In this document: one piece after another, positions 1 through 52,911 of the stretch
How positions within the stretch are numbered: position 1 is the first letter of the stretch
Layout: each line of letters starts with the position of its first letter
Assembly (NCBI GenBank): GCA_944393005.1
Contig: CALXYO010000002.1
Location: 124,001-188,000, forward strand
Length of the DNA: 64,000 nt
Origin: an uncultured Spirochaetales bacterium
GTDB lineage: Bacteria; Spirochaetota; Spirochaetia; Sphaerochaetales; Sphaerochaetaceae
Reading direction: 5' to 3'
Notes under the pieces: generated by a model
What the model saw: the letters and a program-made list of their open reading frames with translations, nothing else
What the model was told of the DNA's origin: nothing
Database searches by the model: none
Made by a program: the position numbers and the translations under genes

Positions 1-1427
1 AGTGCATAAATAGTATCATCCTTCACGCTTTTGATCACCGTACCTCCTGCAAAAAGCACGGAAAGCTCAAAGTGAAGATAGAATGACCTGTAATCAAGAT
101 TCGCAGTTCCGACAAGAGCGATCTTGTCATCTGCGACAAGAGTTTTGGAATGTATGAAGCCAGGTGTGAATTCATAGATTCTCACACCCTGGCTCACCAG
201 TCTTTTATATACCGAACGAGTCACCTCATGCACCGATTTCTTGTCGGCATAATGAGGGGTCACGATACGTACATCCACACCCGATGCGGCGGCGATGGAC
301 AGTGCTGTCGTGATCTCGCTGTCGAGGATCAGATACGGACTGACCATCCATACATACTGCCGTGCATTGTTTATAGCCTGAAGATAGACATTGCGTGCTA
401 TTGCCCTCTCATCAAACGGACTGTCGGCAAACGGCTGAACATAGCCGTCAGAGGGAACACTCACACTCGGGCGGAACAGGGAAAAATCCTCATCCTTCTT
501 TGTTATGGCCTTCCATACAAGAAGGAACATCATCGTGAAGTTCCATACCGCCTGACCGCTTATCTTCATCGCATTGTCCTTCCAGTAGGCAAAACGGATG
601 ATGTCATTCGTGTATTCATCCGCAAGGTTCAGCCCGCCGCTGTAGCATACATTGCCGTCTATGTTGAATATCTTGCGGTGATCACGGTAATTGAGCCGCG
701 GATTCATATGCAGGGCAAGCGGGTTGAACGTATATGCCTCAAATCCCATTGCACGCAGCTTCTGGGCATAGCCTGCAGGCAGAACGTTTATTGACCCAAG
801 GTCATCATAAAGTATCCTTATAAGGACACCTTCCCTGCTTTTTCTCCTGAGAATCTCAAGGATAGTGTCCCATACCTTTCCCGGTGCGAGTATGAAATAC
901 TCTATGAAAATGAACTTCTCTGCCTTTTCGATCTCATTTATCAGATCATTGAAAAAATCATCACCGAAAGCGAAATACCTGACACTGGTGTTCTTCGCCG
1001 GAGCATAGCCGCTTGTCTGGTATATATAAGACATCTGCCTCGCTTCCGATTCATCTATTCCTTCAAGCTCCTCCCTCGTTATGTCCTCTATGTCGTAGTG
1101 ACCGAGATCACGTGTCTGCAAGATCTTCCTTGATGCTATCTTTCCTATCTTCTTCTTTCCGAAAATGAGATAGAGAATGCCTCCGGCAAGAGGAAAGACG
1201 CAGATTATGAGCATCCACGAGAGCTTGTAGTCAGGCGACTCTTCCCTGGTGGCGACAAAAAGCACAGCACAGAATGACATGGCGAGAAGCAGGAACAGCA
1301 CATGCACGTCATTCGAGAAATAGAATGCCGCAAGGATGAGGATTATGAACTGGCTTGCCATCAGAAGCGCGAACCACAGCAGTCTGGATGAAAGCAGCCG
1401 GATTGTTTTCTTAAGAAACCGTCTCAC
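1..1427 (-). CDS. cls: Cardiolipin synthase, C-terminus cut by window edge
   Basis: Membrane phospholipase-D-family enzyme that condenses phosphatidylglycerol into cardiolipin. The minus-strand frame starts at GTG 1427 and overlaps the upstream queH stop by 4 bases (GTGA). About 475 codons are visible and the frame is still open at base 1, so roughly the last 30-40 residues are missing. The N-terminus has two hydrophobic membrane segments. Two HKD motifs are readable: one beginning HRKIFNID followed by a GG, and a second HSKTLVADDK followed by GTANLD. This two-HKD, two-TM layout is typical of bacterial Cls. It is translationally coupled to queH, with no obvious functional link. Confidence 0.93.
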   Translation of the reverse strand, partial: MRRFLKKTIRLLSSRLLWFALLMASQFIILILAAFYFSNDVHVLFLLLAMSFCAVLFVATREESPDYKLSWMLIICVFPLAGGILYLIFGKKKIGKIASRKILQTRDLGHYDIEDITREELEGIDESEARQMSYIYQTSGYAPAKNTSVRYFAFGDDFFNDLINEIEKAEKFIFIEYFILAPGKVWDTILEILRRKSREGVLIRILYDDLGSINVLPAGYAQKLRAMGFEAYTFNPLALHMNPRLNYRDHRKIFNIDGNVCYSGGLNLADEYTNDIIRFAYWKDNAMKISGQAVWNFTMMFLLVWKAITKKDEDFSLFRPSVSVPSDGYVQPFADSPFDERAIARNVYLQAINNARQYVWMVSPYLILDSEITTALSIAAASGVDVRIVTPHYADKKSVHEVTRSVYKRLVSQGVRIYEFTPGFIHSKTLVADDKIALVGTANLDYRSFYLHFELSVLFAGGTVIKSVKDDTIYA

Positions 1428-1963
1428 TGGCTCACCCCTGAGAGAGAAAACTCGCAGCCGCAGTAATTCTGCCGGTACAGTCCGAGCTGTCTTGAAATTT
1501 CGATTGAACGCGTGAACCCGTTTTTCTTCTTGAAATCAATTTCCTCAAAACCGTCAAACACATCGCCTGCACTGAATATCTTCCTGCTGTTCTTGAAACG
1601 TGACACGCTCAGCGTGGTTGTGAAATGCTCAATACCGAGCTCTGCCGCCTTCTGGGCAGCCCTTCTCAGATTGTATGAAAAGCAGATGGAACACCTCTCT
1701 CCTCCTTCCCTGTCACCTTCATGCCCGCTGACAGATGCAAGCCATTCATCATGGTCCTGCTCCTCCCTGATGACTTCAAGATCATAGAAAGCAGCGACTT
1801 TCAGAAGTTCCCCGTACCGCTTTTCAAATTCGGAGGCAGGATAGATATTGCTGTTGGAGAAAAAAAGCACCGGAAGCCAGCCTTCACTGAGAAGACGTTC
1901 GATTGAAGCGGTTGAACACGGACCGCAGCAGCAGTGCAGCAAAATTTTTTTCTCTCTTTCCAT
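1424..1963 (-). CDS. queH: Epoxyqueuosine reductase QueH
   Basis: A 179-aa protein of the QueH (former DUF208) family, which reduces epoxyqueuosine to queuosine in tRNA wobble positions, replacing QueG. The N-terminus has the Cys-rich motif HCCCGPC (residues 10-16), there is a CSIC pair near residue 91, and a CGC pair lies near the C-terminus; these family cysteines are ligands for Fe-S and metal centres. The ATG at 1963 has no Shine-Dalgarno, but an extended -10 (TGGTAATAT) ends 7 nt upstream, so the mRNA may be leaderless. It is followed by cls with a 4-bp overlap. Confidence 0.93.
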   Translation of the reverse strand: MEREKKILLHCCCGPCSTASIERLLSEGWLPVLFFSNSNIYPASEFEKRYGELLKVAAFYDLEVIREEQDHDEWLASVSGHEGDREGGERCSICFSYNLRRAAQKAAELGIEHFTTTLSVSRFKNSRKIFSAGDVFDGFEEIDFKKKNGFTRSIEISRQLGLYRQNYCGCEFSLSGVSQ

Positions 1964-1970
1964 GACTGAG

Positions 1971-1999
1971 ATATTACCATATTATTAGTATTTTGTGAG
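1971..1999 (-). promoter_or_regulatory. Promoter of queH-cls
   Basis: On the minus strand: -35-like CTCACA (1994-1999), a 17-bp spacer, and -10 TAATAT (1971-1976) preceded by TGG, giving an extended -10. The -10 ends 7 nt before the queH ATG. It overlaps the ribosome-binding site region of the divergent TPR gene. Confidence 0.5.
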
Positions 2000-2008
2000 G
2001 AACCCAAA

Positions 2009-3067
2009 TTGAATAAGAACAATATTATCATAATCGTTGCAGTCATATTGATTCTGATTGCCTTTGCCGCTTTCGGCTCAAATACCACAGTGCAGATAAT
2101 AATGCTGCTGGCTGCTTTGCTTGCCCTGCTGTATACAAGAAGGTCGACAATGTACTTTGCACGGGCCAACAAGGCGTATACGGCTAAAAAAGGAGACTAT
2201 ATCCAGCTTTACAACAAAGCAGTCAAGGCCGGTCTGGCTTATAAGTACATGGTCATCGCAGGCACCATACTGATCAAAGAAGGGGCTGTGGAAGACGGAA
2301 AGAATGCGCTTTGCAGAATAATAAACGACAGGCACTTCAGGGATGACAAGATAATCAGTCAGGCCAGGATCGCACTGTCGATGGGCTATTATCAGGAAAA
2401 AGATTACAGCAAAGCTGCAGAAATCTGCGAGGAAGTCATGAAGAGTGATTACAGGGACAAGAACCTTTACATCAATCTGTCAACCTATCTGCTGGCGCTC
2501 GGCAGGCTTGATGATTTCTATATTCTTGTCGATGAGTTCTCATCCAAGAGCAAGCTCAGTACTCCGGCTCTTGCCGATCTGCAGGTCACAAGATGCATTC
2601 TTCAGGGTGATTTCATTAAGGCTTATCAGATGCTTGTATACTTCATGAAGCAGTACACCTTCAATTTTGCCGATCCATATGTGCATTTTGCCCAGGTATA
2701 CATGCACTACGGAGAGGCAGAGAAAGCTGTTGAAGTTCTGAAGGAATGCCTTGCAAAGGTTCTTTTCGAGCCTATCTACATAATCCCGAAAGAAGTGATC
2801 AGGCAGCTTATTGAAGAACTCTCAGATCCTGACAGAGCACCCGCTCTCATGGCAGCAAACAATGCCGATCCTCTTGCCCTGATCAACGGTCACATGCCTC
2901 AGCCGTACAGCGGCGAGATAATCTTTGCCTCCTTCAGCGAGGTTGAGGAAGCTGAAAAGCAGGAAGAAATCGAAAAACGCAGGCAGAAGAGTCTGATCGA
3001 AAGAGACCACTCAACTGATCTCACCGATGAAGATGAGCAGTGGCTGAAAAGACATCAGGACAGCTAA
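2009..3067 (+). CDS. Membrane-anchored TPR-repeat protein
   Basis: A 352-aa protein beginning at TTG 2009, with GTGAGG about 8 nt upstream as ribosome-binding site. Two hydrophobic helices (about residues 5-22 and 27-42) anchor it in the inner membrane. The rest is alpha-helical with tetratricopeptide-like repeats, for example YYQEKDYSKAAEICEEVM and YMHYGEAEKAVEVLKE. The C-terminus is highly charged (Glu/Lys/Asp). TPR proteins act as scaffolds for protein complexes; no specific partner can be inferred. The stop codon overlaps the convergent rnz gene by 4 bp. Confidence 0.75.
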   Translation: MNKNNIIIIVAVILILIAFAAFGSNTTVQIIMLLAALLALLYTRRSTMYFARANKAYTAKKGDYIQLYNKAVKAGLAYKYMVIAGTILIKEGAVEDGKNALCRIINDRHFRDDKIISQARIALSMGYYQEKDYSKAAEICEEVMKSDYRDKNLYINLSTYLLALGRLDDFYILVDEFSSKSKLSTPALADLQVTRCILQGDFIKAYQMLVYFMKQYTFNFADPYVHFAQVYMHYGEAEKAVEVLKECLAKVLFEPIYIIPKEVIRQLIEELSDPDRAPALMAANNADPLALINGHMPQPYSGEIIFASFSEVEEAEKQEEIEKRRQKSLIERDHSTDLTDEDEQWLKRHQDS

Positions 3068-3987
3068 TCCTTCAGAGGTATTGTGAAGCTCATACGGTCC
3101 TTTGTGAGAACGGTCTCAGGGAATATTTCCCTCGCCTCGGCAAGCAGTATTTTAAGCTCCCTGTCGCTGTAGCGCGGAGAATAATGCTGAAGACAGAGTT
3201 TTGCCGCACCCGCATCACGTGCGACCATGGCAGCCTGAAACGCTGTCATGTGTTTTTTCTCCCTCGCATCATCGACAAGTGCATGCTCAAACATGCCTTC
3301 ACAGAAGAGTATGTCTGAATCATGAGCATAATCCGCCATTTCAGGAAAGTACAGGCTGTCTGTCATGTAAGTGAACTTGCGCCCGCTTCTCTTAGGCCCG
3401 AGTATCATATCAGGAGTGATGATCTGTCCCTGTGAATTCTCAACAGCCACACCATGCTGGAGAAGTGACCATTTAGGCCCTTTCTCGACTTTGTTCAGGA
3501 TGGCCTTCTCCACAGAAAACTCACCCGGACGCTGTTTCTCGACAAGCGAGTAGCCATAGCAGATCTTGGTATGCTTCAGCATGAAACAGTTCACCGTGTA
3601 TTCATCAGTCTCAACCAGAACCCCCTCCTCAACAGGTGTGAATATGATCTCGTAATTGATGTACATATCAAGGATTCTGCGGCTTGATTCTATATACTCC
3701 CCAAGCCTTGAAGGTCCGTAAATATAAAGAGGCTCGCTTCTGTCAACCTGGCTTGAAAGCATGAGAAGTCCCGGCAGACCGGTCACATGATCGGCATGCA
3801 TATGAGAAATGAAGACAGAGTGTATATGTTTCCAGCTCAGGTTGAGCATCTTCAGCGACACCTGTGTTCCCTCTCCGCAGTCGAAAAGGAAAAGCTGTCC
3901 TTCCCTCCTGACGAGGACACTGGTCAGAAAACGATTGGGAAGCGGCATCATGCCGCCTGTTCCGAGACTGAAAACTTCAAAATTCAC
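3064..3987 (-). CDS. rnz: Ribonuclease Z (tRNA 3'-processing endonuclease)
   Basis: A 307-aa metallo-beta-lactamase-fold nuclease that cuts tRNA precursors after the discriminator base. It has the zinc motif HMHADH (residues 62-67) after the strand LFLFDCGEGTQ, a conserved MTDS block, and further His ligands near the C-terminus. Its length matches the short tRNase Z form. The start is GTG at 3987; there is no Shine-Dalgarno, but a TATACT -10 lies 7 nt upstream inside the short gap after the ABC permease gene, so it may be a leaderless unit of its own. Confidence 0.93.
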   Translation of the reverse strand: MNFEVFSLGTGGMMPLPNRFLTSVLVRREGQLFLFDCGEGTQVSLKMLNLSWKHIHSVFISHMHADHVTGLPGLLMLSSQVDRSEPLYIYGPSRLGEYIESSRRILDMYINYEIIFTPVEEGVLVETDEYTVNCFMLKHTKICYGYSLVEKQRPGEFSVEKAILNKVEKGPKWSLLQHGVAVENSQGQIITPDMILGPKRSGRKFTYMTDSLYFPEMADYAHDSDILFCEGMFEHALVDDAREKKHMTAFQAAMVARDAGAAKLCLQHYSPRYSDRELKILLAEAREIFPETVLTKDRMSFTIPLKD

Positions 3988-3994
3988 AGATGTG

Positions 3995-4024
3995 AGTATA
4001 GCTGAATGGCAAGCTATGAAACAA
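3995..4024 (-). promoter_or_regulatory. Possible promoter of rnz
   Basis: Minus strand: TTGTTT (4019-4024), 18-bp spacer, TATACT (3995-4000), then 7 nt to the GTG start of rnz. The -35 is weak (3 of 6 consensus positions). It overlaps the end of the upstream permease gene. Confidence 0.4.
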
Positions 4025-25813: not shown

Positions 25814-25842
25814 TTGAAAAGTTTCACGGCACAGTATAGAAT
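25814..25842 (+). promoter_or_regulatory. Promoter of the AraC regulator gene
   Basis: TTGAAA (25814-25819), 17-bp spacer, TAGAAT (25837-25842): each box matches the consensus at 5 of 6 positions. The ATG at 25850 begins 7 nt after the -10, so transcription should start at or next to the start codon. Confidence 0.65.
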
Positions 25843-25849
25843 TTATGTA

Positions 25850-27976
25850 ATGCATGAGAGAGGAAAACAAAAGACTTACCATGAACAGCTGAGTTCTGTT
25901 TTCATAGCCACGGCCATTCTGGTCGCGGCAATCGCAATAATTGCGGGACTCCTGGCCGAAAGGAACATCATGACATCCACGATGCACGCAAATGAATCGC
26001 TGGAAGATGTCTCCTCATACATGCTTTCATCCCGGGTAAATGAAATAAGCAACACCATAGACTACCTTTCCACATGCGAGTGCGTCCTTGACTGGCTGTA
26101 TGCCGACATAGGCAGCGCGGACTACTACTATCAGGGACTGCTTTCATATCAGGAACTCGTCAGGAGATCTCCGGTTTTCAATTCAGGAACTTTCAATATC
26201 GCGATAACAAGCGATGACGCATCCTCATTCGTCATAACATCGGGCGGAACATACAGCAAAAGGGAATTCCTCAGCTATGTCACTCCGGGACTGGTGAGGC
26301 TTCCAGCCGGTGACGCGTCGATATCGCTCACTCCGGATAATTCCACCCTTCTCATGTCGGTAAAACGCTATCTCGGGGAAAAGACGCTTATATTCTACTG
26401 CACGATCTCTCTGTCCTATCTTTCTTTCCCGCTTGAAAGCAACATACAGTATGCCTTCATCGACACCTCAAGCGGCATAATCTACACTCCGTTCGAAGAG
26501 ATCGGGAACAAACTTGAAGGTCTCAATCTGCATGTGATGCAGGACGGAAGGCTGACCATGGACAACATGTCTCTCAGAAAGGAAAGCTATTCCCAGTTCG
26601 ATTTCTGTGCTGTCTACGCCCACAGCACCACAATGATCTCACCGTTCATCTTCATGCTGATCTTCATCCCCTGCATAATATTGATGTGCCTTTATGTGTC
26701 ATTCAAAATTTCCGGAAGGCTGTACAGACCGGTGAAGGAAGCATATGAAACCCTGATGAGCCCGGAGGAAGAAGAAACAAGAGGAAACGAATTCGACACG
26801 ATCATCGTAAAGTGCCAGGAGGCCGATCAGATTTCAAAGAAGCTCATAACAATGAGCGCGGAACTGCAGAACGCAACCGACATACAGAAATACCGCTCAT
26901 ATCTCAGAGGTCAGGATTCGCTGTACCGTGCGGAAGATGACATTGCTGCATTCTTCTGTCTGAGCATCCTTTCATCTGGCAGCCTTCCAGACGGAAGACA
27001 GGCTACTGTGAATCTCACCTTCAACTCCATGGCGAGAAAGGTGAAACATCTGCACTTCATCATAACAGACAGCGGTTTTTCCGTGCTTATCTACAAATCG
27101 AATAACAGTGAAGAATGCTACAGTACACTTTACAGGACGCTGAAGGAGTTCACGGCAATCGATGCTGAAGCGGGACTTCAGGCTGCGATCACAAGGCCGT
27201 GCGAAGGCTGGAGCGGTATAAAGGGCCTGTATCAGAATGCACTTAACATCATGGACTGCCGCTATATCCTTCAGGATAAGATCATCATGACTGAAGACGA
27301 CATGATCGACAATACGGGCCTGATGCATTATCCGATCAGTGAGGAGAGAAAGCTGATCAATGCCGCACTGAGCGCATCTGTGAACACACTTGATATCTTT
27401 GATGCGATAGTAAAAGACAATACAGCTCCTGAAAGAATGCTAACCGAAAAGGAATTTGAACGATTCTCATCTGCCCTGATATCAACAGTCATGAGGATAT
27501 TCCAGGAAATGAAAGAAGACATCGACGGGGATGTGAACTGGAAAGATCTCATGGACAACCAGAAACCGGCTGCTGCAATAAGCGAGCTTAGAAACCTGCT
27601 TGCAGGATACGTTGAAAGGAAGAACAGGGAAAACAGCGAACGCTATGACTATCTTGTCGATGAGATGAAAAAATATATTCAGGCCCATTACAGTGAGAAC
27701 ATCCAGCTGATCGATCTGTCTGAAGAATTCAACTTAAGTCCCAAATACTGCTCTGAGGTGTTCAACCGCCTGAGCGGTGAGAACTTCAAGAACTACCTCA
27801 ACCGTTTCAGGATAAACGAAGCCCAGAGAATACTTGATGAGAATCCTGAGATCAGAATAACCCAGCTTGCAAGCGAAGTGGGTTTCTCATCAAGCAACTC
27901 CTTCATCCGCGTATTCGACAAATACATGGGCATCACACCGAAACAGTATGCGGAAAGCAGGAAAAAGGAAATCTAA
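25850..27976 (+). CDS. Membrane-bound AraC-family regulator of the glycan locus
   Basis: A 708-aa one-component regulator. The first helix (about residues 14-36) and a second around residue 255 bracket an extracytoplasmic sensor of some 210 residues. A cytoplasmic linker leads to a C-terminal AraC DNA-binding domain with two helix-turn-helix units (IQLIDLSEEFNLSPKYCSEVF and ITQLASEVGFSSSNSFIRVF, then GITPKQYAE). This layout resembles the YesN/YtdP-type regulators next to Lpl transporters; the ligand is presumably the imported oligosaccharide. A start at 25733 is open but lies upstream of the predicted promoter and was rejected. There is no Shine-Dalgarno before ATG 25850. Confidence 0.88.
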   Translation: MHERGKQKTYHEQLSSVFIATAILVAAIAIIAGLLAERNIMTSTMHANESLEDVSSYMLSSRVNEISNTIDYLSTCECVLDWLYADIGSADYYYQGLLSYQELVRRSPVFNSGTFNIAITSDDASSFVITSGGTYSKREFLSYVTPGLVRLPAGDASISLTPDNSTLLMSVKRYLGEKTLIFYCTISLSYLSFPLESNIQYAFIDTSSGIIYTPFEEIGNKLEGLNLHVMQDGRLTMDNMSLRKESYSQFDFCAVYAHSTTMISPFIFMLIFIPCIILMCLYVSFKISGRLYRPVKEAYETLMSPEEEETRGNEFDTIIVKCQEADQISKKLITMSAELQNATDIQKYRSYLRGQDSLYRAEDDIAAFFCLSILSSGSLPDGRQATVNLTFNSMARKVKHLHFIITDSGFSVLIYKSNNSEECYSTLYRTLKEFTAIDAEAGLQAAITRPCEGWSGIKGLYQNALNIMDCRYILQDKIIMTEDDMIDNTGLMHYPISEERKLINAALSASVNTLDIFDAIVKDNTAPERMLTEKEFERFSSALISTVMRIFQEMKEDIDGDVNWKDLMDNQKPAAAISELRNLLAGYVERKNRENSERYDYLVDEMKKYIQAHYSENIQLIDLSEEFNLSPKYCSEVFNRLSGENFKNYLNRFRINEAQRILDENPEIRITQLASEVGFSSSNSFIRVFDKYMGITPKQYAESRKKEI

Positions 27977-29971: not shown

Positions 29972-30000
29972 TTGACTCACATTAACCCATTGAATATAAT
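29972..30000 (+). promoter_or_regulatory. Strong promoter of the ATPase/Asp23-like gene
   Basis: TTGACT (29972-29977), 17-bp spacer, perfect TATAAT (29995-30000). The ATG at 30009 begins 8 nt after the -10, with no Shine-Dalgarno between, so the transcript is predicted to start at the AUG. Confidence 0.75.
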
Positions 30001-30008
30001 TTCACCTG

Positions 30009-30866
30009 ATGAACAGAATATTCAAATTCGCATTCTCTCATCTCAATGGTGTGAAAGTCTATGCTCTGGTCGGGCGATCCGGAACAGGGAAAAGCCACCA
30101 CAGCAAGCTTGTGGCACAGAAACACCATATAGATCTGATCATAGATGACGGTCTCCTCATAAAAGGCGACAAGATACTTGCCGGCCATTCTGCAAAGAGA
30201 GACCCAAATTTCCTTGTCGCTGTAAAAACCGCGGTTTTTGATGATGATGCCCACAGGGAAGAAGTCATCGAAGCCCTTCTCAAGGAGAAATACAAGAAGA
30301 TACTCATAATCGGAACAAGCGAGAAAATGGTCAACAAGATTGCCCAGCGCCTCAACCTTCCTCCTGTAAGCAAGGTCTTCCATATTGAGGAAGTTGCAAG
30401 CGAAGAGGAAATCGAGACTGCGATGAGAATCCGCTATACGGAAGGAAAGCATGTCATACCCGTTCCGTCGATAGAAATAACACGCAACTACCCCCAGATC
30501 GTCTATGACAGCATGAAAGTGTTTTTCGGAAAGAGGATTCCATTCAAGAAAAAACAGAGTTTTGAGAAGACAATAGTCCGTCCTGAGTTCAGCCGCCCCG
30601 ACAAGGATGCCGTGAATGAAAACACTCTCATGCAGATGGTTAAGCACTGCATCGATGAATACGACAAGGTAATAAAAGTCAAACGGGTCAGGACAACTGC
30701 ACTGAAGAACAATGAATATGACATCAACGTGACCCTGCAGGTTCCGCTCAGACACTATATCGGACAGACCATGAGTGAACTTCAGGAATACATTGCCGAC
30801 TGTATTGAAAAATACGGCGGAATCATGGTGCACCAGGTATCTATAGAAATCGAAGAATGGGGCTAA
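30009..30866 (+). CDS. P-loop ATPase with Asp23-like C-terminal domain
   Basis: A 285-aa protein. The N-terminal half is a P-loop domain with Walker A GRSGTGKS (about residues 23-30), then a Walker-B-like DLIIDDGLL. Residues about 225-285 (VTLQVPLRHYIGQTMSELQEYIADCI, then VHQVSIEIEEWG) resemble half of the Asp23/Gls24 fold, known from envelope-stress proteins. The two parts in one chain are unusual. It is driven by its own strong promoter, and its stop overlaps the convergent pcnB by 4 bp. The role is unknown; kinase or ATPase activity is inferred only from the P-loop. Confidence 0.65.
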   Translation: MNRIFKFAFSHLNGVKVYALVGRSGTGKSHHSKLVAQKHHIDLIIDDGLLIKGDKILAGHSAKRDPNFLVAVKTAVFDDDAHREEVIEALLKEKYKKILIIGTSEKMVNKIAQRLNLPPVSKVFHIEEVASEEEIETAMRIRYTEGKHVIPVPSIEITRNYPQIVYDSMKVFFGKRIPFKKKQSFEKTIVRPEFSRPDKDAVNENTLMQMVKHCIDEYDKVIKVKRVRTTALKNNEYDINVTLQVPLRHYIGQTMSELQEYIADCIEKYGGIMVHQVSIEIEEWG

Positions 30867-32551: not shown

Positions 32552-32631
32552 ATTGACGAATGTGAACTTTAACACATCTACCGTAATTTATTCAAGAGGT
32601 AATTTATTAGATTAAGAATACAGAATTGTGG

Positions 32632-32637
32632 TATGAT
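32632..32637 (+). promoter_or_regulatory. -10 box of the barrel-protein gene
   Basis: TATGAT (5 of 6 consensus) ends 6 nt before ATG 32644, preceded by GTGG. No convincing -35 or Shine-Dalgarno is present, so the gene may be read from a leaderless mRNA. Confidence 0.4.
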
Positions 32638-32643
32638 CTTGTC

Positions 32644-33261
32644 ATGAGAAAATTAACTACATCTGTCATGATTTTACTGTTTTCCCTTTCATCAGTCTGG
32701 GCACTGAATGAAGTCCAGGAATCCCCTTATCCCCCGACATATTCCTACACTACGATCAGCACCGGCTTCAGCATCAGCGCTGCAGACGGAGAGGAAGTTC
32801 GTAATGCAGTACCTGTATCATTTCAGGCAGGGGTACTGTCAAACAATGAAAGCGGATCAATGGCAATGGGATTCGGCACACGTATCGATATCGGATTCGG
32901 CATCGGCAGCAACAGCCGAAACATCTCGATAGACACAATGGCAGGGCTTGACATGCTGTTCCGTTTCAACAGGTCGTTTGCCATTGATGTGCTGGCAGGA
33001 TGTGCATTCGGCTTCATCGGAACGGATGAGAATCCGGATATACTGACAATAGGGCCGGCACTGTCTGCCGCACTGAGAATAACACCGGCTGGTTTTTCAG
33101 CTGTTGCACTTGATGCGGGAGCTGCCGTATACGGGCAGTTCGGAATAGGAGATGAATACACTGGTGTCAATTTCGTACCTTATGTATCCATCACATTCGA
33201 CATATCATCATGGCCCGTCCTCTTCCATCCCTACCATTCATCCCATGTGATAATTTTCTGA
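32644..33261 (+). CDS. Exported beta-barrel protein
   Basis: A 205-aa protein with a signal peptide (RKLTTSVMILLFSLSSVWA). The mature chain is made of alternating-residue amphipathic strands rich in Gly, Ser and Phe/Ile (for example MGFGTRIDIGFGIGS, FSAVALDAGAAVYGQFGIG), the appearance of small spirochaetal outer-membrane barrels. Start 32644 is preferred over 32626 because it places the signal peptide at the N-terminus. Similar proteins are encoded at 28.3 and 61.8 kb. Confidence 0.7.
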   Translation: MRKLTTSVMILLFSLSSVWALNEVQESPYPPTYSYTTISTGFSISAADGEEVRNAVPVSFQAGVLSNNESGSMAMGFGTRIDIGFGIGSNSRNISIDTMAGLDMLFRFNRSFAIDVLAGCAFGFIGTDENPDILTIGPALSAALRITPAGFSAVALDAGAAVYGQFGIGDEYTGVNFVPYVSITFDISSWPVLFHPYHSSHVIIF

Positions 33262-46231: not shown

Positions 46232-46261
46232 TGGAAACGTTTCATCATATTTTGCTAACAT
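46232..46261 (+). promoter_or_regulatory. Possible promoter of the DMT transporter gene
   Basis: TGGAAA (46232-46237), 18-bp spacer, TAACAT (46256-46261). The second ATG of the gene (46269) begins 7 nt after the -10; no Shine-Dalgarno is present. Confidence 0.4.
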
Positions 46262-46265
46262 TCTC

Positions 46266-47168
46266 ATGATGAAGAAAAGCATATTCTACCTTGTATCATT
46301 TCTCACCGGTGCCGTGATCAGCGTGATGGTGGTCGCCAACACGGAACTGGGACGCATCACGACGAATGAAGTGTCTCTCATTGTGAATCAGGCAATAGGT
46401 GTTGTTCTGACAACTTTCATTCTGCTTGCAGGCAGGAAAAACGAGATCATAAACCCGGCAAGGAAGAAAAGCAGGTGGTACATGTATTTCGGAGGCCTCT
46501 TCGGCATCTGCGTCATGGTCTGTAATTTCTACAGTGTCCTCAATGTCGGCTCAGCGCTTGCAATGGCCGCTGCAGTGTTCGGACAGAGTCTCACAGGTCT
46601 TGTCACAGATCTTTTCGGACTCTTCTCAATGCCGAAAAGAAAACAGAGCACGCTGAAATGGATTTCCCTTGCGCTTTCCTTCACCGGCATCTTCATAATG
46701 AGCCTGTCTCAAAGCGGTTCTTTCCGGCTCATCTATATCCTCATGGGAGTGCTTGCAGGAATCATGACAATGCTGCAGATGACGTACAACTCATCTTTCG
46801 CAAAGGCCAAGGGAGCCGTTTTCTCCGCACGGCAAAATGCAATCTCGGGCCTTGCCGGAACAATAATCTATGCCGCACTGCTGATGCCGGAGGAAACGCT
46901 TCACGGCTTCACGCTGCTTCCCTCAGCCTCATTCCTTTCAATAATAACAGGCGGAACCCTCGCCATAGTGGTTGTGGTCTCGACCAATCTGGTCATTCCG
47001 AGAATACCGGCAGTCTATTCCGCCCTTCTGCTTTCCTGCGGCCAGATACTCACAAGCATTGTGATAGACACTTTCCTTTATGATCTGTTCTCACCAAGCC
47101 TGCTCATCGGTTCCCTTGTCATGCTTGCAGGCATAGGGCTCAACTTCAGTGCAGACAGAAAAGCATGA
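46266..47168 (+). CDS. DMT-family transporter, YdcZ/DUF606 type
   Basis: A 300-aa inner-membrane protein with ten hydrophobic helices formed by two copies of a five-helix DUF606 unit (first about 5-140, second about 150-297). Drug/metabolite transporters of this kind export small molecules; the substrate is unknown. ATG at 46266 or 46269 are both possible; the promoter geometry favours 46269. Confidence 0.8.
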   Translation: MMKKSIFYLVSFLTGAVISVMVVANTELGRITTNEVSLIVNQAIGVVLTTFILLAGRKNEIINPARKKSRWYMYFGGLFGICVMVCNFYSVLNVGSALAMAAAVFGQSLTGLVTDLFGLFSMPKRKQSTLKWISLALSFTGIFIMSLSQSGSFRLIYILMGVLAGIMTMLQMTYNSSFAKAKGAVFSARQNAISGLAGTIIYAALLMPEETLHGFTLLPSASFLSIITGGTLAIVVVVSTNLVIPRIPAVYSALLLSCGQILTSIVIDTFLYDLFSPSLLIGSLVMLAGIGLNFSADRKA

Positions 47169-47178
47169 AAAACGGCTT

Positions 47179-48345
47179 CTACAAAGCCAGCTTTGCCTTC
47201 ACCTCGGCAGTGAGTTCTTTATTCAGATTCGCCTTCACTGTGACAAACTGGGCCCGTGTTCCTATGAGGACAGCACCGGAGAGAAGTCCGTCCCGGATGA
47301 AATATGAACATCTGTTGTCATCACCTTCCCTGACGATCACATCACAGCCGGCAGTACTGACATTTCCAAGGCTCACAACATCAAGACCGGCAACCTTAAG
47401 CATGCTTGAAGGACTTGCAATTCTGTAGGCTGTCTTCTTTCCTGCAATGTTTGAAGCGAGAACCTTCGCCATATCAAGTGCAGCGCTGACCTGTCCGGTC
47501 ACACGGCCATCCGTCTCCGCAACATCGCCTATCGCATAAATGTCCTCAACAGATGTCATCAGGTAATCATCAACGACAACACCTCTGCTGACCTTAAGCC
47601 CCGCATCCACGGCAAGGAAGGTGTTTGACCTTATTCCCACTGATTCGACAATGGTGGAAGCAGGGATGGAAAATCCGTCATCACACTTCACTCCGCTCAC
47701 GCACTCATCATGGTCATAAAGGAAATTGGATGTCCTGACACCGCAAAGAATGCTGAGTCCCATGCCCTCCAGCCGTTTCTGAAGATAAACAGCACTGTCC
47801 CTGTCAAGCTGACGGGGCAGAAGATAAGGGAATGTCTCAATCACAGTGACGGTTTTCCCGGTGTGGCAGTGGATTTCATAGGCAGCTTCGATTCCCAGCA
47901 GTCCGCCGCCGATAACGACAGTGTTCTCGCAATGATCCTTCAGCCAGGCCCTGAGCGAATATACATCATCCACAGTCCTTACAGTGAATATTCCCTTCGA
48001 CTTTCCGCCGGGAAGTGCAAGAGAGAGTGCACTGGCTCCGTTTGCAAGCACAAGCACATCATATTCATATGCCTCTCCGTCATCGCTGTACACAAGCTTG
48101 TTGTCAGGATCAATGCAGTTCACATGCTTTCTGACAAGCTTGTAGCGTTCATCAGTGATCTCAGGTTTTATGGCAAGATCCTTCTCATCCGCTGTGTCAG
48201 AAAGCAGGGAAAGAACCCGTGTCCTGTAATAAGGAGAAAAGGATTCATCGCTGAAGACCTCAATGGTACAGTCATCAACTGTCCTGAGGATATTGAGTGC
48301 CGCATTGTAACTTGCAATTCCGTTGCCTACGATAACTATCTTCAT
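47179..48345 (-). CDS. FAD/NAD(P)-dependent oxidoreductase, rubredoxin-reductase-like
   Basis: A 388-aa pyridine-nucleotide-disulfide oxidoreductase-fold flavoprotein. The FAD motif is VIVGNGIASYNAA at the N-terminus, the NAD motif is VVIGGGLLGIEAAYEI near residue 145, and the second FAD motif is DIYAIGDVAE. No redox-active CxxC is seen, placing it with rubredoxin/ferredoxin reductases and NADH oxidases that protect anaerobes from oxygen. The ATG at 48345 gives the normal Rossmann start; it lacks a Shine-Dalgarno but lies 8 nt after a -10-like TAAAGT. Confidence 0.88.
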   Translation of the reverse strand: MKIVIVGNGIASYNAALNILRTVDDCTIEVFSDESFSPYYRTRVLSLLSDTADEKDLAIKPEITDERYKLVRKHVNCIDPDNKLVYSDDGEAYEYDVLVLANGASALSLALPGGKSKGIFTVRTVDDVYSLRAWLKDHCENTVVIGGGLLGIEAAYEIHCHTGKTVTVIETFPYLLPRQLDRDSAVYLQKRLEGMGLSILCGVRTSNFLYDHDECVSGVKCDDGFSIPASTIVESVGIRSNTFLAVDAGLKVSRGVVVDDYLMTSVEDIYAIGDVAETDGRVTGQVSAALDMAKVLASNIAGKKTAYRIASPSSMLKVAGLDVVSLGNVSTAGCDVIVREGDDNRCSYFIRDGLLSGAVLIGTRAQFVTVKANLNKELTAEVKAKLAL

Positions 48346-48353
48346 AAGTCTGA

Positions 48354-48382
48354 ACTTTAATACCAAATAAAAATACAGGCAA
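48354..48382 (-). promoter_or_regulatory. Possible promoter of the FAD oxidoreductase gene
   Basis: Minus strand: TTGCCT (48377-48382), 17-bp spacer, TAAAGT (48354-48359), then 8 nt to ATG 48345. Both boxes match at 4 of 6 positions. Confidence 0.4.
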
Positions 48383-50858: not shown

Positions 50859-52073
50859 CTATTGTCTGTCCTCATCAGCATTCTTTCTGTTCTCGCCTTC
50901 GGGAAGAATGATATCCCCGCGCGGGTTCACATCCGGAGCATTCTCATCCTGTATCTTCTTTTTCAGGCTGCGTCTTCCCTTTTCCTGGATCTTATATTCG
51001 CGTATGTAGCTCTTGCCGGATGACAGCAGCACCGCAACAGGCTTGAGTGGCGGTGTGATGGCACAGACAATCTGGATTATGCTCATGATGGGAACAGCGA
51101 GGAACATGCCCGGCAGTCCCCAGATATAGCCCCATACGGAAAGGGAGATGAGGATCATGAGCGGTGACATATTCAGCTGAACGCCCTGAAGACGGGGATC
51201 AATTATATTGCCAAGTATCATCTCGATGGAGATCGTGAGGACTATGACATATATTATGTTCACCCACTCTGTCGGGGCAAACTGGATGATGGACATCAGT
51301 ATCGTGAGGACTGTGACTATGATGGAACCTATTGTCGGGATGAAATTGAGAAGCATTGCCAGCACACCCCATACAAGAGCGAAATCAAGATTGGTCACAA
51401 TGGCCGTAAGATAATAAAGGAAACCTGTCAGAAGGCTTATCACGGCCTTGAGCATCAGGTATTTCGTCATCTGCCTGTTTATGCGTCCCATGGTGGATGC
51501 GAATTTCTGGCTCTTGTCACGCGGCAGGGCGAAGGTTATCTTCGGCATGAAAGTCGTTCTCTCAAGCAGAAGGAAGAGGACTATCACGAAGATCAGCATC
51601 GCATCGGAAAGCACTGAGATTATCTGGGAAGAGAAACTCGTCAGCGAATTCATGGCAAGGCCGTACCAGTCGACATCTATCATTGAGAGCACTGAAAACT
51701 CCTCACCGAGTTCGGGGAAATGCTCGGCAAGCTCACTGGAGAAATTCTTGTCGAGCGACACAACACGGGAGGCGTAATACGGCATTCTGTCCAGTATCAT
51801 GTTGACCATCAGGAAGAGAATGTACAGAAAGCCGAAGAATATAACGAAAATAAGGGCCATGCACAGGATGATCGAAATGGCATTTGGCACCTTGAGGCGT
51901 GACATGCGGTCCATCAGAGGGTTTACGAATGCGAAGATGAAAAGCGCCAGTGCGACCGGAAGCGTGACTTCACTGGCCGCCTTTATGACAAAAAGGAACA
52001 GGACAACGGCCGCAAAGACCAGGCAGTTCCTTATCTGTCTGCTGTACTGCTGTGCATTATTTACCTCTTTCAT
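50859..52073 (-). CDS. AI-2E family transporter / PerM-like permease
   Basis: A 404-aa membrane protein with about eight helices and the AI-2E/PerM family layout: a helix pair at the N-terminus, a central cytosolic/periplasmic insertion, and a C-terminal block ending ISLSVWGYIWGLPGMFLAVP. Despite the name most members have unknown substrates (AI-2 export, Na+/H+ antiport). The charged C-terminal tail is cytoplasmic. No Shine-Dalgarno precedes ATG 52073, which lies 9 nt after a TATTCT -10. Confidence 0.85.
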   Translation of the reverse strand: MKEVNNAQQYSRQIRNCLVFAAVVLFLFVIKAASEVTLPVALALFIFAFVNPLMDRMSRLKVPNAISIILCMALIFVIFFGFLYILFLMVNMILDRMPYYASRVVSLDKNFSSELAEHFPELGEEFSVLSMIDVDWYGLAMNSLTSFSSQIISVLSDAMLIFVIVLFLLLERTTFMPKITFALPRDKSQKFASTMGRINRQMTKYLMLKAVISLLTGFLYYLTAIVTNLDFALVWGVLAMLLNFIPTIGSIIVTVLTILMSIIQFAPTEWVNIIYVIVLTISIEMILGNIIDPRLQGVQLNMSPLMILISLSVWGYIWGLPGMFLAVPIMSIIQIVCAITPPLKPVAVLLSSGKSYIREYKIQEKGRRSLKKKIQDENAPDVNPRGDIILPEGENRKNADEDRQ

Positions 52074-52082
52074 ACAGTATTC

Positions 52083-52112
52083 AGAATAGAACACTTTGAC
52101 TTTTTAACTCAA
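52083..52112 (-). promoter_or_regulatory. Possible promoter of the AI-2E transporter gene
   Basis: Minus strand: TTGAGT (52107-52112), 18-bp spacer, TATTCT (52083-52088), then 9 nt to ATG 52073. It lies in the divergent gap before the trmJ-like gene. Confidence 0.4.
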
Positions 52113-52167: not shown

Positions 52168-52911
52168 ATGGAAAACAAAGAGTTTTTAAACAGGATCGAG
52201 ATCGTTCTCGTGGATACGCAGGACGGAGCGAACATAGGTTCTGTCTGCCGTGCCATGAAGACAATGGGGCTGACACATCTTACTCTTGTCACAAAAAGAA
52301 ACTATGACGAGAACAGGGTGAGAACCCTTGCACTGCATGCCTCTGATCTGTACGAGAATGCAAAACGTACGGAGAGTCTGGAAGACGCCATAAAGGACAG
52401 CATTCTTGCAGTGGGAGCCACAAGACGCAGGGGGAAATACCGCAAGCTCTCCTCCTTCTCGCCGGAACAGCTTGCATCCCATATAAGTTCACTTCCCGAT
52501 GGCAAGGTATCCATCGTGTTCGGCCGTGAATCCGACGGTCTCACAGACGAGGAAGTGATGTCATGTTCGGCTGTCGTGTCGATACCGACAAGCGAGGCAT
52601 TCCCTTCCCTCAACCTTTCCCAGGCTGTGCAGATCATCGCCTACACGCTTTTCACAAAGGCACAGATCTATCCGCAGGGAATGACTGCGGTCACTCATGA
52701 AAGAGTAAGACAGGCCGTTGATGATGCATCATCCCACCTGAGCGCCATCGGATACTACAAATGGGACGAGGAAAGGAAATGGACGGAGAACTTTCTCAAG
52801 GATCTTCTGGAACGCGCAGCACTGAGCGAGAGCGAGATGCAGAGGTTCGACAAGCTCTTTGCAAAAATAGAGAACATAAAAATCCACAAGGAGGGAATCA
52901 AGAATGAGTGA
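52168..52911 (+). CDS. tRNA 2'-O-methyltransferase, TrmJ/SpoU family
   Basis: A 247-aa SPOUT methyltransferase with the knot motifs IVFGRESDGLTDEEV and IPTSEAFPSLNLSQAV, matching the TrmJ subgroup that methylates position 32 in the tRNA anticodon loop. ATG 52168 puts the first family block (IEIVLVDTQDGANIGSVCRAM) about 8 residues from the start, as usual. The in-frame TTG at 52138 directly follows a -10-like TAAACT (52132-52137) and so would be untranscribed. No clear Shine-Dalgarno is present. It overlaps the next gene by 8 bp. Confidence 0.88.
   Translation: MENKEFLNRIEIVLVDTQDGANIGSVCRAMKTMGLTHLTLVTKRNYDENRVRTLALHASDLYENAKRTESLEDAIKDSILAVGATRRRGKYRKLSSFSPEQLASHISSLPDGKVSIVFGRESDGLTDEEVMSCSAVVSIPTSEAFPSLNLSQAVQIIAYTLFTKAQIYPQGMTAVTHERVRQAVDDASSHLSAIGYYKWDEERKWTENFLKDLLERAALSESEMQRFDKLFAKIENIKIHKEGIKNE

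Follow-up and report, generated by a model that had tools for sequence, protein, structure and literature searches.

The window analysed here is a 64 kb stretch (G000:C2:124001-188000) of a 2.26 Mb genome in 20 contigs. Judged by the EF-G-type protein of the window, uncultured Spirochaetales are closest, with Bullifex porci, Candidatus Aphodenecus, Candidatus Ornithospirochaeta and Sphaerochaeta spp. farther out, which places the source organism among gut spirochaetes of the Sphaerochaetaceae type. An earlier note on this DNA had pointed to eight genes with a -10 box close to the start codon and no Shine-Dalgarno (SD) sequence. All eight boxes and their gaps (the gap being the number of nucleotides between the end of the -10 box and the start codon) were read back at the coordinates and on the strands listed in Table 1.

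Table 1. Start-proximal promoter elements and the genes that follow them in the window
Feature	Position	Strand	Gap (nt)	Basis and remarks
ATPase -35, TTGACT	29972-29977	+		read directly; TTGAC-like in nearly all 13 orthologs, spacer diverged
ATPase -10, TATAAT	29995-30000	+	8	17 nt after -35
P-loop ATPase-like gene, ATG, no SD	30009-30866	+		ORF; start at or next to the predicted transcription start
queH -10-like, TAATAT	1971-1976	-	7	read directly
queH (epoxyqueuosine reductase), ATG	1424-1963	-		PF02677, E 7.5e-55
rnz -10, TATACT	3995-4000	-	7	read directly; box in 13/13 orthologs, TTG-type -35
rnz -35, TTGTTT	4019-4024	-		~18 nt upstream of -10; overlaps end of upstream gene
rnz (ribonuclease Z), GTG	3064-3987	-		NF000801/TIGR02651
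AraC-type regulator -10, TAGAAT	25837-25842	+	7	6/8 orthologs vs 0.8 in shuffles
AraC-type regulator, ATG	25850-27976	+		PF12833
Barrel -10, TATGAT, with TGG extended -10 (TG 32629-32630)	32632-32637	+	6	read directly
Putative barrel protein, ATG	32644-33261	+		no family match
DMT -10, TAACAT, with TGC extended -10 (TG 46253-46254)	46256-46261	+	7	read directly
DMT (YdcZ-type) transporter, ATG	46269-47168	+		PF04657
FAD oxidoreductase -10-like, TAAAGT	48354-48359	-	8	read directly; weakest of the eight
FAD-dependent oxidoreductase, ATG	47179-48345	-		PF07992
AI-2E transporter -10-like, TATTCT	52083-52088	-	9	read directly
AI-2E family transporter, ATG	50859-52073	-		PF01594
TrmJ/YjtD-type RNA methyltransferase gene	52168-52911	+		divergent from AI-2E gene

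Orthologs of the eight genes were taken from same-genus genomes and aligned at their starts, and across them the spacing between box and start is conserved while the flanks diverge. The 285-aa P-loop protein matches no Pfam or NCBIfam family; the same N-terminus is found in 13 same-genus genomes at 80-99% identity. Ahead of the ATG, all 13 of these orthologs carry a TATAAT-like box at a distance of 7-9 nt, and TAnnnT at gap 5-10 is present in 13/13 versus 2.3 in shuffles. The P-loop protein is also better conserved across the 13 genomes than either RNase Z or QueH. The start codon of rnz is GTG in nine orthologs and ATG in four. The barrel box occurs in 11/15 orthologs, the absences lying mainly among the most distant ones. 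All eight had been described as first genes of transcription units, which is true of seven; for rnz, with another gene of its strand ending 26 nt ahead of it, the description is inexact, though the rnz promoter is conserved.

The loose boxes of queH, the DMT transporter, the FAD oxidoreductase and the AI-2E transporter are near chance when taken singly. The orthologs rescue three of them as putative promoter boxes and hardly the FAD box. For queH the box is kept in 13/14 orthologs (e.g. as TAGTAT or TATAAT) versus 4.2 in shuffles, and an SD is absent in the 14. The DMT box is present in 10/13 orthologs (1.7 in shuffles), most of which have TGC or TGn ahead of it; the promoter is mostly of the extended -10 type with no clear -35. 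For the AI-2E transporter, TAnnnT stands at gap 5-10 in 4/5 orthologs versus 1.0 in shuffles. Only the three nearest genomes (L121-L123) retain the FAD box, which adjoins the start there as TAAAGT, TACAGT and TATAGT. Of the four distant orthologs (L124, L131, L132, L133), three have an SD motif, AAGGAG or GAGG, ahead of the start, so that this gene seems to have switched its mode of initiation within one genus. With a -10-like box at gap 5-10 in 6/7 orthologs, the TrmJ/YjtD-type methyltransferase gene is another possible leaderless gene; its boxes in the window lie 10-13 nt ahead of the start chosen for it.

For a count beyond the window, we sampled 798 kb of the host genome in stretches, about one third of the total, with 736 genes, among them 394 first genes and 279 operon-internal ones. 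A same-genus relative (57.6% G+C) was sampled over 397 kb (352 genes, 178 first genes), and E. coli K-12, with genes called in the same way in eight 50-kb stretches, served as a control (205 first genes). Genes were called with a self-trained hexamer model that chooses starts by coding score plus a prior and leaves the upstream signal unused; this coding-score caller placed the starts of queH and the barrel gene, two of the window's eight, wrongly. A strict box was TAxxxT with at most one mismatch to TATAAT and a loose box was TAnnnT; the controls were 200 dinucleotide shuffles and the other gap triplets. An unconstrained three-class EM was abandoned when its background class collapsed, and fixed motifs with decoy distances were used in its place.

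The genome-wide tally of -10 boxes that the earlier note had proposed, done in this gene-aware form, gives a sharp enrichment at gap 6-8 among the first genes that lack an SD, in both host and relative. In the host, 36 of the 394 first genes have a strict box there, versus 6.3 in dinucleotide shuffles (at most 14 in any of the 200) and a mean of 9.4 at other gap triplets (Poisson p 3e-11). The boxes number 14 at gap 6, 14 at gap 7 and 8 at gap 8, and 0-7 elsewhere. The relative has 22/178, versus 2.9 at other distances and 1.5 in dinucleotide shuffles (maximum 8). E. coli K-12 lacks a peak at gap 6-8 (1/205 versus 2.7), and none of the 279 operon-internal genes of the host sample has a box at gap 5-9. 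A joint SD/-10 start model assigns 57 leaderless first genes to the host (4-9 with decoy distances), 38 to the relative (2-5) and 4 to E. coli (2-6). After decoy subtraction, about 50/394 host first genes (12-13%; ~7% of the 736 genes) and about 34/178 in the relative (19%; ~10% of the 352 genes) are predicted to be leaderless, the rest having an SD or no recognisable signal. The gap-6 peak is also present among 80 loci of the EF-G neighbourhood, which are orthologous and therefore not independent evidence. Among 29 host-relative ortholog pairs with matching starts, too few to measure concordance, one is leaderless in both.

The -35 element, the base at -1 and the SD played no part in picking the 36 and 22 genes, nor did a TGn extension in picking the genes of the joint model, and all of these marks agree with promoters at these starts. 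Matches to TTGACA (at least 4/6) peak at a spacer of 17, where 10/36 host genes have one, with 0-4 at other spacers; a TGn extended -10 is found in 14/57 host and 12/38 relative genes of the joint model, about 1/16 being expected. The boxes thus show the marks of sigma-70-type promoters, either an extended -10 or a -35 set off by a spacer of about 17. The base at -1 is a pyrimidine (C or T) in 32/36 host genes (p 2e-4) and in 22/22 of the relative (p 5e-5). An SD precedes 2/36 box genes versus 168/358 other first genes in the host (p 2e-7), and 1/22 versus 80/156 in the relative (p 1e-5). Operon-internal genes of the host are rich in SDs, as had been noted from the window (81%, versus 55% of first genes), so that both modes of initiation coexist in this genome. 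The 16S matches in the assembly stop at model position 1387, and the 3' tail with the anti-SD was not found there; the sole match (G000:C12:62095-63477; L243, L244) consists of two adjoining pieces, its 3' end being absent or broken. All 20 of the leaderless candidates scanned match Pfam families, from metabolism, envelope, transport and regulation, and are therefore real genes. In three divergent pairs with starts 46-66 nt apart (L100:12057-12102, L102:18350-18397 and L085:6209-6274) the intergenic region seemingly consists of two back-to-back leaderless promoters; pairs leaderless on both sides show no excess overall (5 versus 3.8 expected).

We consider it very likely, from the -10 geometry, that these genes are transcribed from sigma-70-type promoters into leaderless or near-leaderless mRNAs. 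The promoter would be positioned so that transcription begins at the start codon or within about 3 nt of it, and the resulting mRNA would have neither a leader nor an SD. With the geometry, its distance-specific excess, its limitation to transcription-unit starts and its conservation all observed, the exact 5' ends can be predicted from the distance of the -10 box and from the -1 pyrimidine: at the usual distance from -10 to +1, a gap of 6-7 would make the A of the ATG the first transcribed base, and a gap of 8-9 would allow a leader of 1-3 nt. Orthologous gaps reach 9 nt or slightly more, and some of the RNAs may carry such a leader. Since the SD is absent, the ribosome would have to recognise a 5'-terminal start codon, as ribosomes do on known leaderless mRNAs. 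If other bacteria are a guide, translation would start at the 5'-terminal AUG, or sometimes GUG, with either a 70S particle or a subunit loaded with fMet-tRNA and IF2. The translation of leaderless mRNAs is treated in a review (PMC9031893).

Boxes picked by eye might be nothing but chance hexamers in AT-rich intergenic gaps, and two kinds of count seem to speak for this. Loose TAnnnT boxes at gap 6-8 are only about twice as frequent as chance predicts (66 observed versus 27-34 expected), and raw pattern counts over the whole host genome, made without gene calls, show little excess: TATAATN{5,8}ATG occurs 122 times versus 105 for N{14,17}, and TTGAC...TANNNT before ATG 17 times at gap 6-8 versus 15 at gap 12-14, probably because most raw matches fall inside coding sequence. 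(A comparison of the 122 with 46 matches to the reversed pattern was discarded as a misleading control, the distance control being the 105.) However, strict boxes are several times as numerous as in the shuffles or at any other distance, the -35 elements are commonest at a spacer of 17 and the boxes are conserved in orthologs. Chance is refuted for the set, for which we regard it as extremely improbable, and survives only for the FAD box and possibly the AI-2E box. The starts could also be misassigned, the true start being a downstream in-frame codon with an SD served by an ordinary short-leader promoter. The starts were indeed called from coding score and a prior only, and 3/36 host and 4/22 relative candidates have a further in-frame start downstream that an SD-like motif precedes, but this is no more frequent than among the remaining first genes (host 23/190 and 11/168, relative 16/76 and 18/80). 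Moreover, the residues conserved among orthologs begin at the same start codon, and the -1 pyrimidine and the 6-8 nt gap link the box to the annotated codon, which makes misassignment very unlikely, if slightly less so than chance.

The alternative to which we give the most weight, while still holding it unlikely, accepts the promoters as real and supposes an RNA that begins a few nucleotides ahead of the start region or within it, or else a second, upstream promoter supplying a leadered RNA which is the form translated. Gaps of 8-9 in many ATPase orthologs permit a leader of 1-3 nt, and rnz could be transcribed from the upstream gene as well. Yet the prevailing arrangement is a box at gap 6-7 together with a -1 pyrimidine, which is what a +1 on the first base of the ATG predicts, and since these genes lack an SD, no ribosome-binding site could be recognised on a leadered form. 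Leaderless or near-leaderless transcription thus remains the reading that we prefer.

The predicted trait is shared through the genus and probably extends further. In a scan for TTGAC-N17-19-TANNNT followed by ATG, matches at gap 6-8 outnumber those at gap 12-14 in 61/61 genomes from 25 families of the class (2252 versus 919 in total); the scan is only suggestive, since the excess in the host is small (17 versus 15), a single control distance was used and the genomes scanned were all spirochaetes. On balance we lean towards leaderless initiation being an old, class-wide second mode of starting in Spirochaetia, kept gene by gene over long periods and swapped with SD-led starts in some orthologs, such as those of the FAD oxidoreductase and the barrel protein. 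The trait is not peculiar to this lineage: it is genus-wide, probably class-wide and already reported for Spirochaetes (PMC3160421; PMC5243855).

What we describe adds a well-supported new case to a phenomenon already known and does not amount to a new type of system. The candidates resemble the TA-led genes of Zheng 2011 (PMC3160421), in which the first T of TANNNT lies about 12 nt before the start, the SD signal is absent and the motif exceeds dinucleotide shuffles: here the peak at gap 6-8 puts that T at -12 to -14, and both the lack of SDs and the excess over shuffles are found in host and relative. In that survey TA-led genes were reported for 6/18 Spirochaetes genomes, at a mean of 3.9% of genes (range 1.8-6.9%); the shares here, ~7% and in the relative ~10% of genes, are somewhat higher, though the methods differ. 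The leaderless share of genes is 19.2% in Actinobacteria and 39.4% in Deinococcus-Thermus (PMC3160421), and the mycobacterial and Deinococcus shares are above that of the host. As in those groups, where a -10 box abuts the start codon of many, though not most, transcripts (as cited in PMC5243855), the box adjoins the start. The host candidates include GUG as well as AUG starts. The leaderless mRNAs of mycobacteria and Deinococcus likewise start with either codon. Among spirochaetes, Leptospira interrogans has about 440 mRNAs whose 5' UTR, mapped by dRNA-seq, is below 10 nt, and in around half of them it is below 2 nt (PMC5243855). The two spirochaetes are alike in having leaderless mRNAs, measured in Leptospira and predicted from sequence in the Sphaerochaetaceae host; they differ in that no common promoter motif except sigma-54 was reported for Leptospira, whereas -35 and -10 elements are clear here. 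No paper that links Sphaerochaeta to leaderless genes turned up in a literature search.

For annotation, such starts will tend to be misplaced by SD-dependent gene callers. The analysis also supplies a list of conserved genes suited to testing leaderless translation, and extends to the Sphaerochaetaceae a trait that, in the spirochaete literature found, has been measured only in Leptospira.
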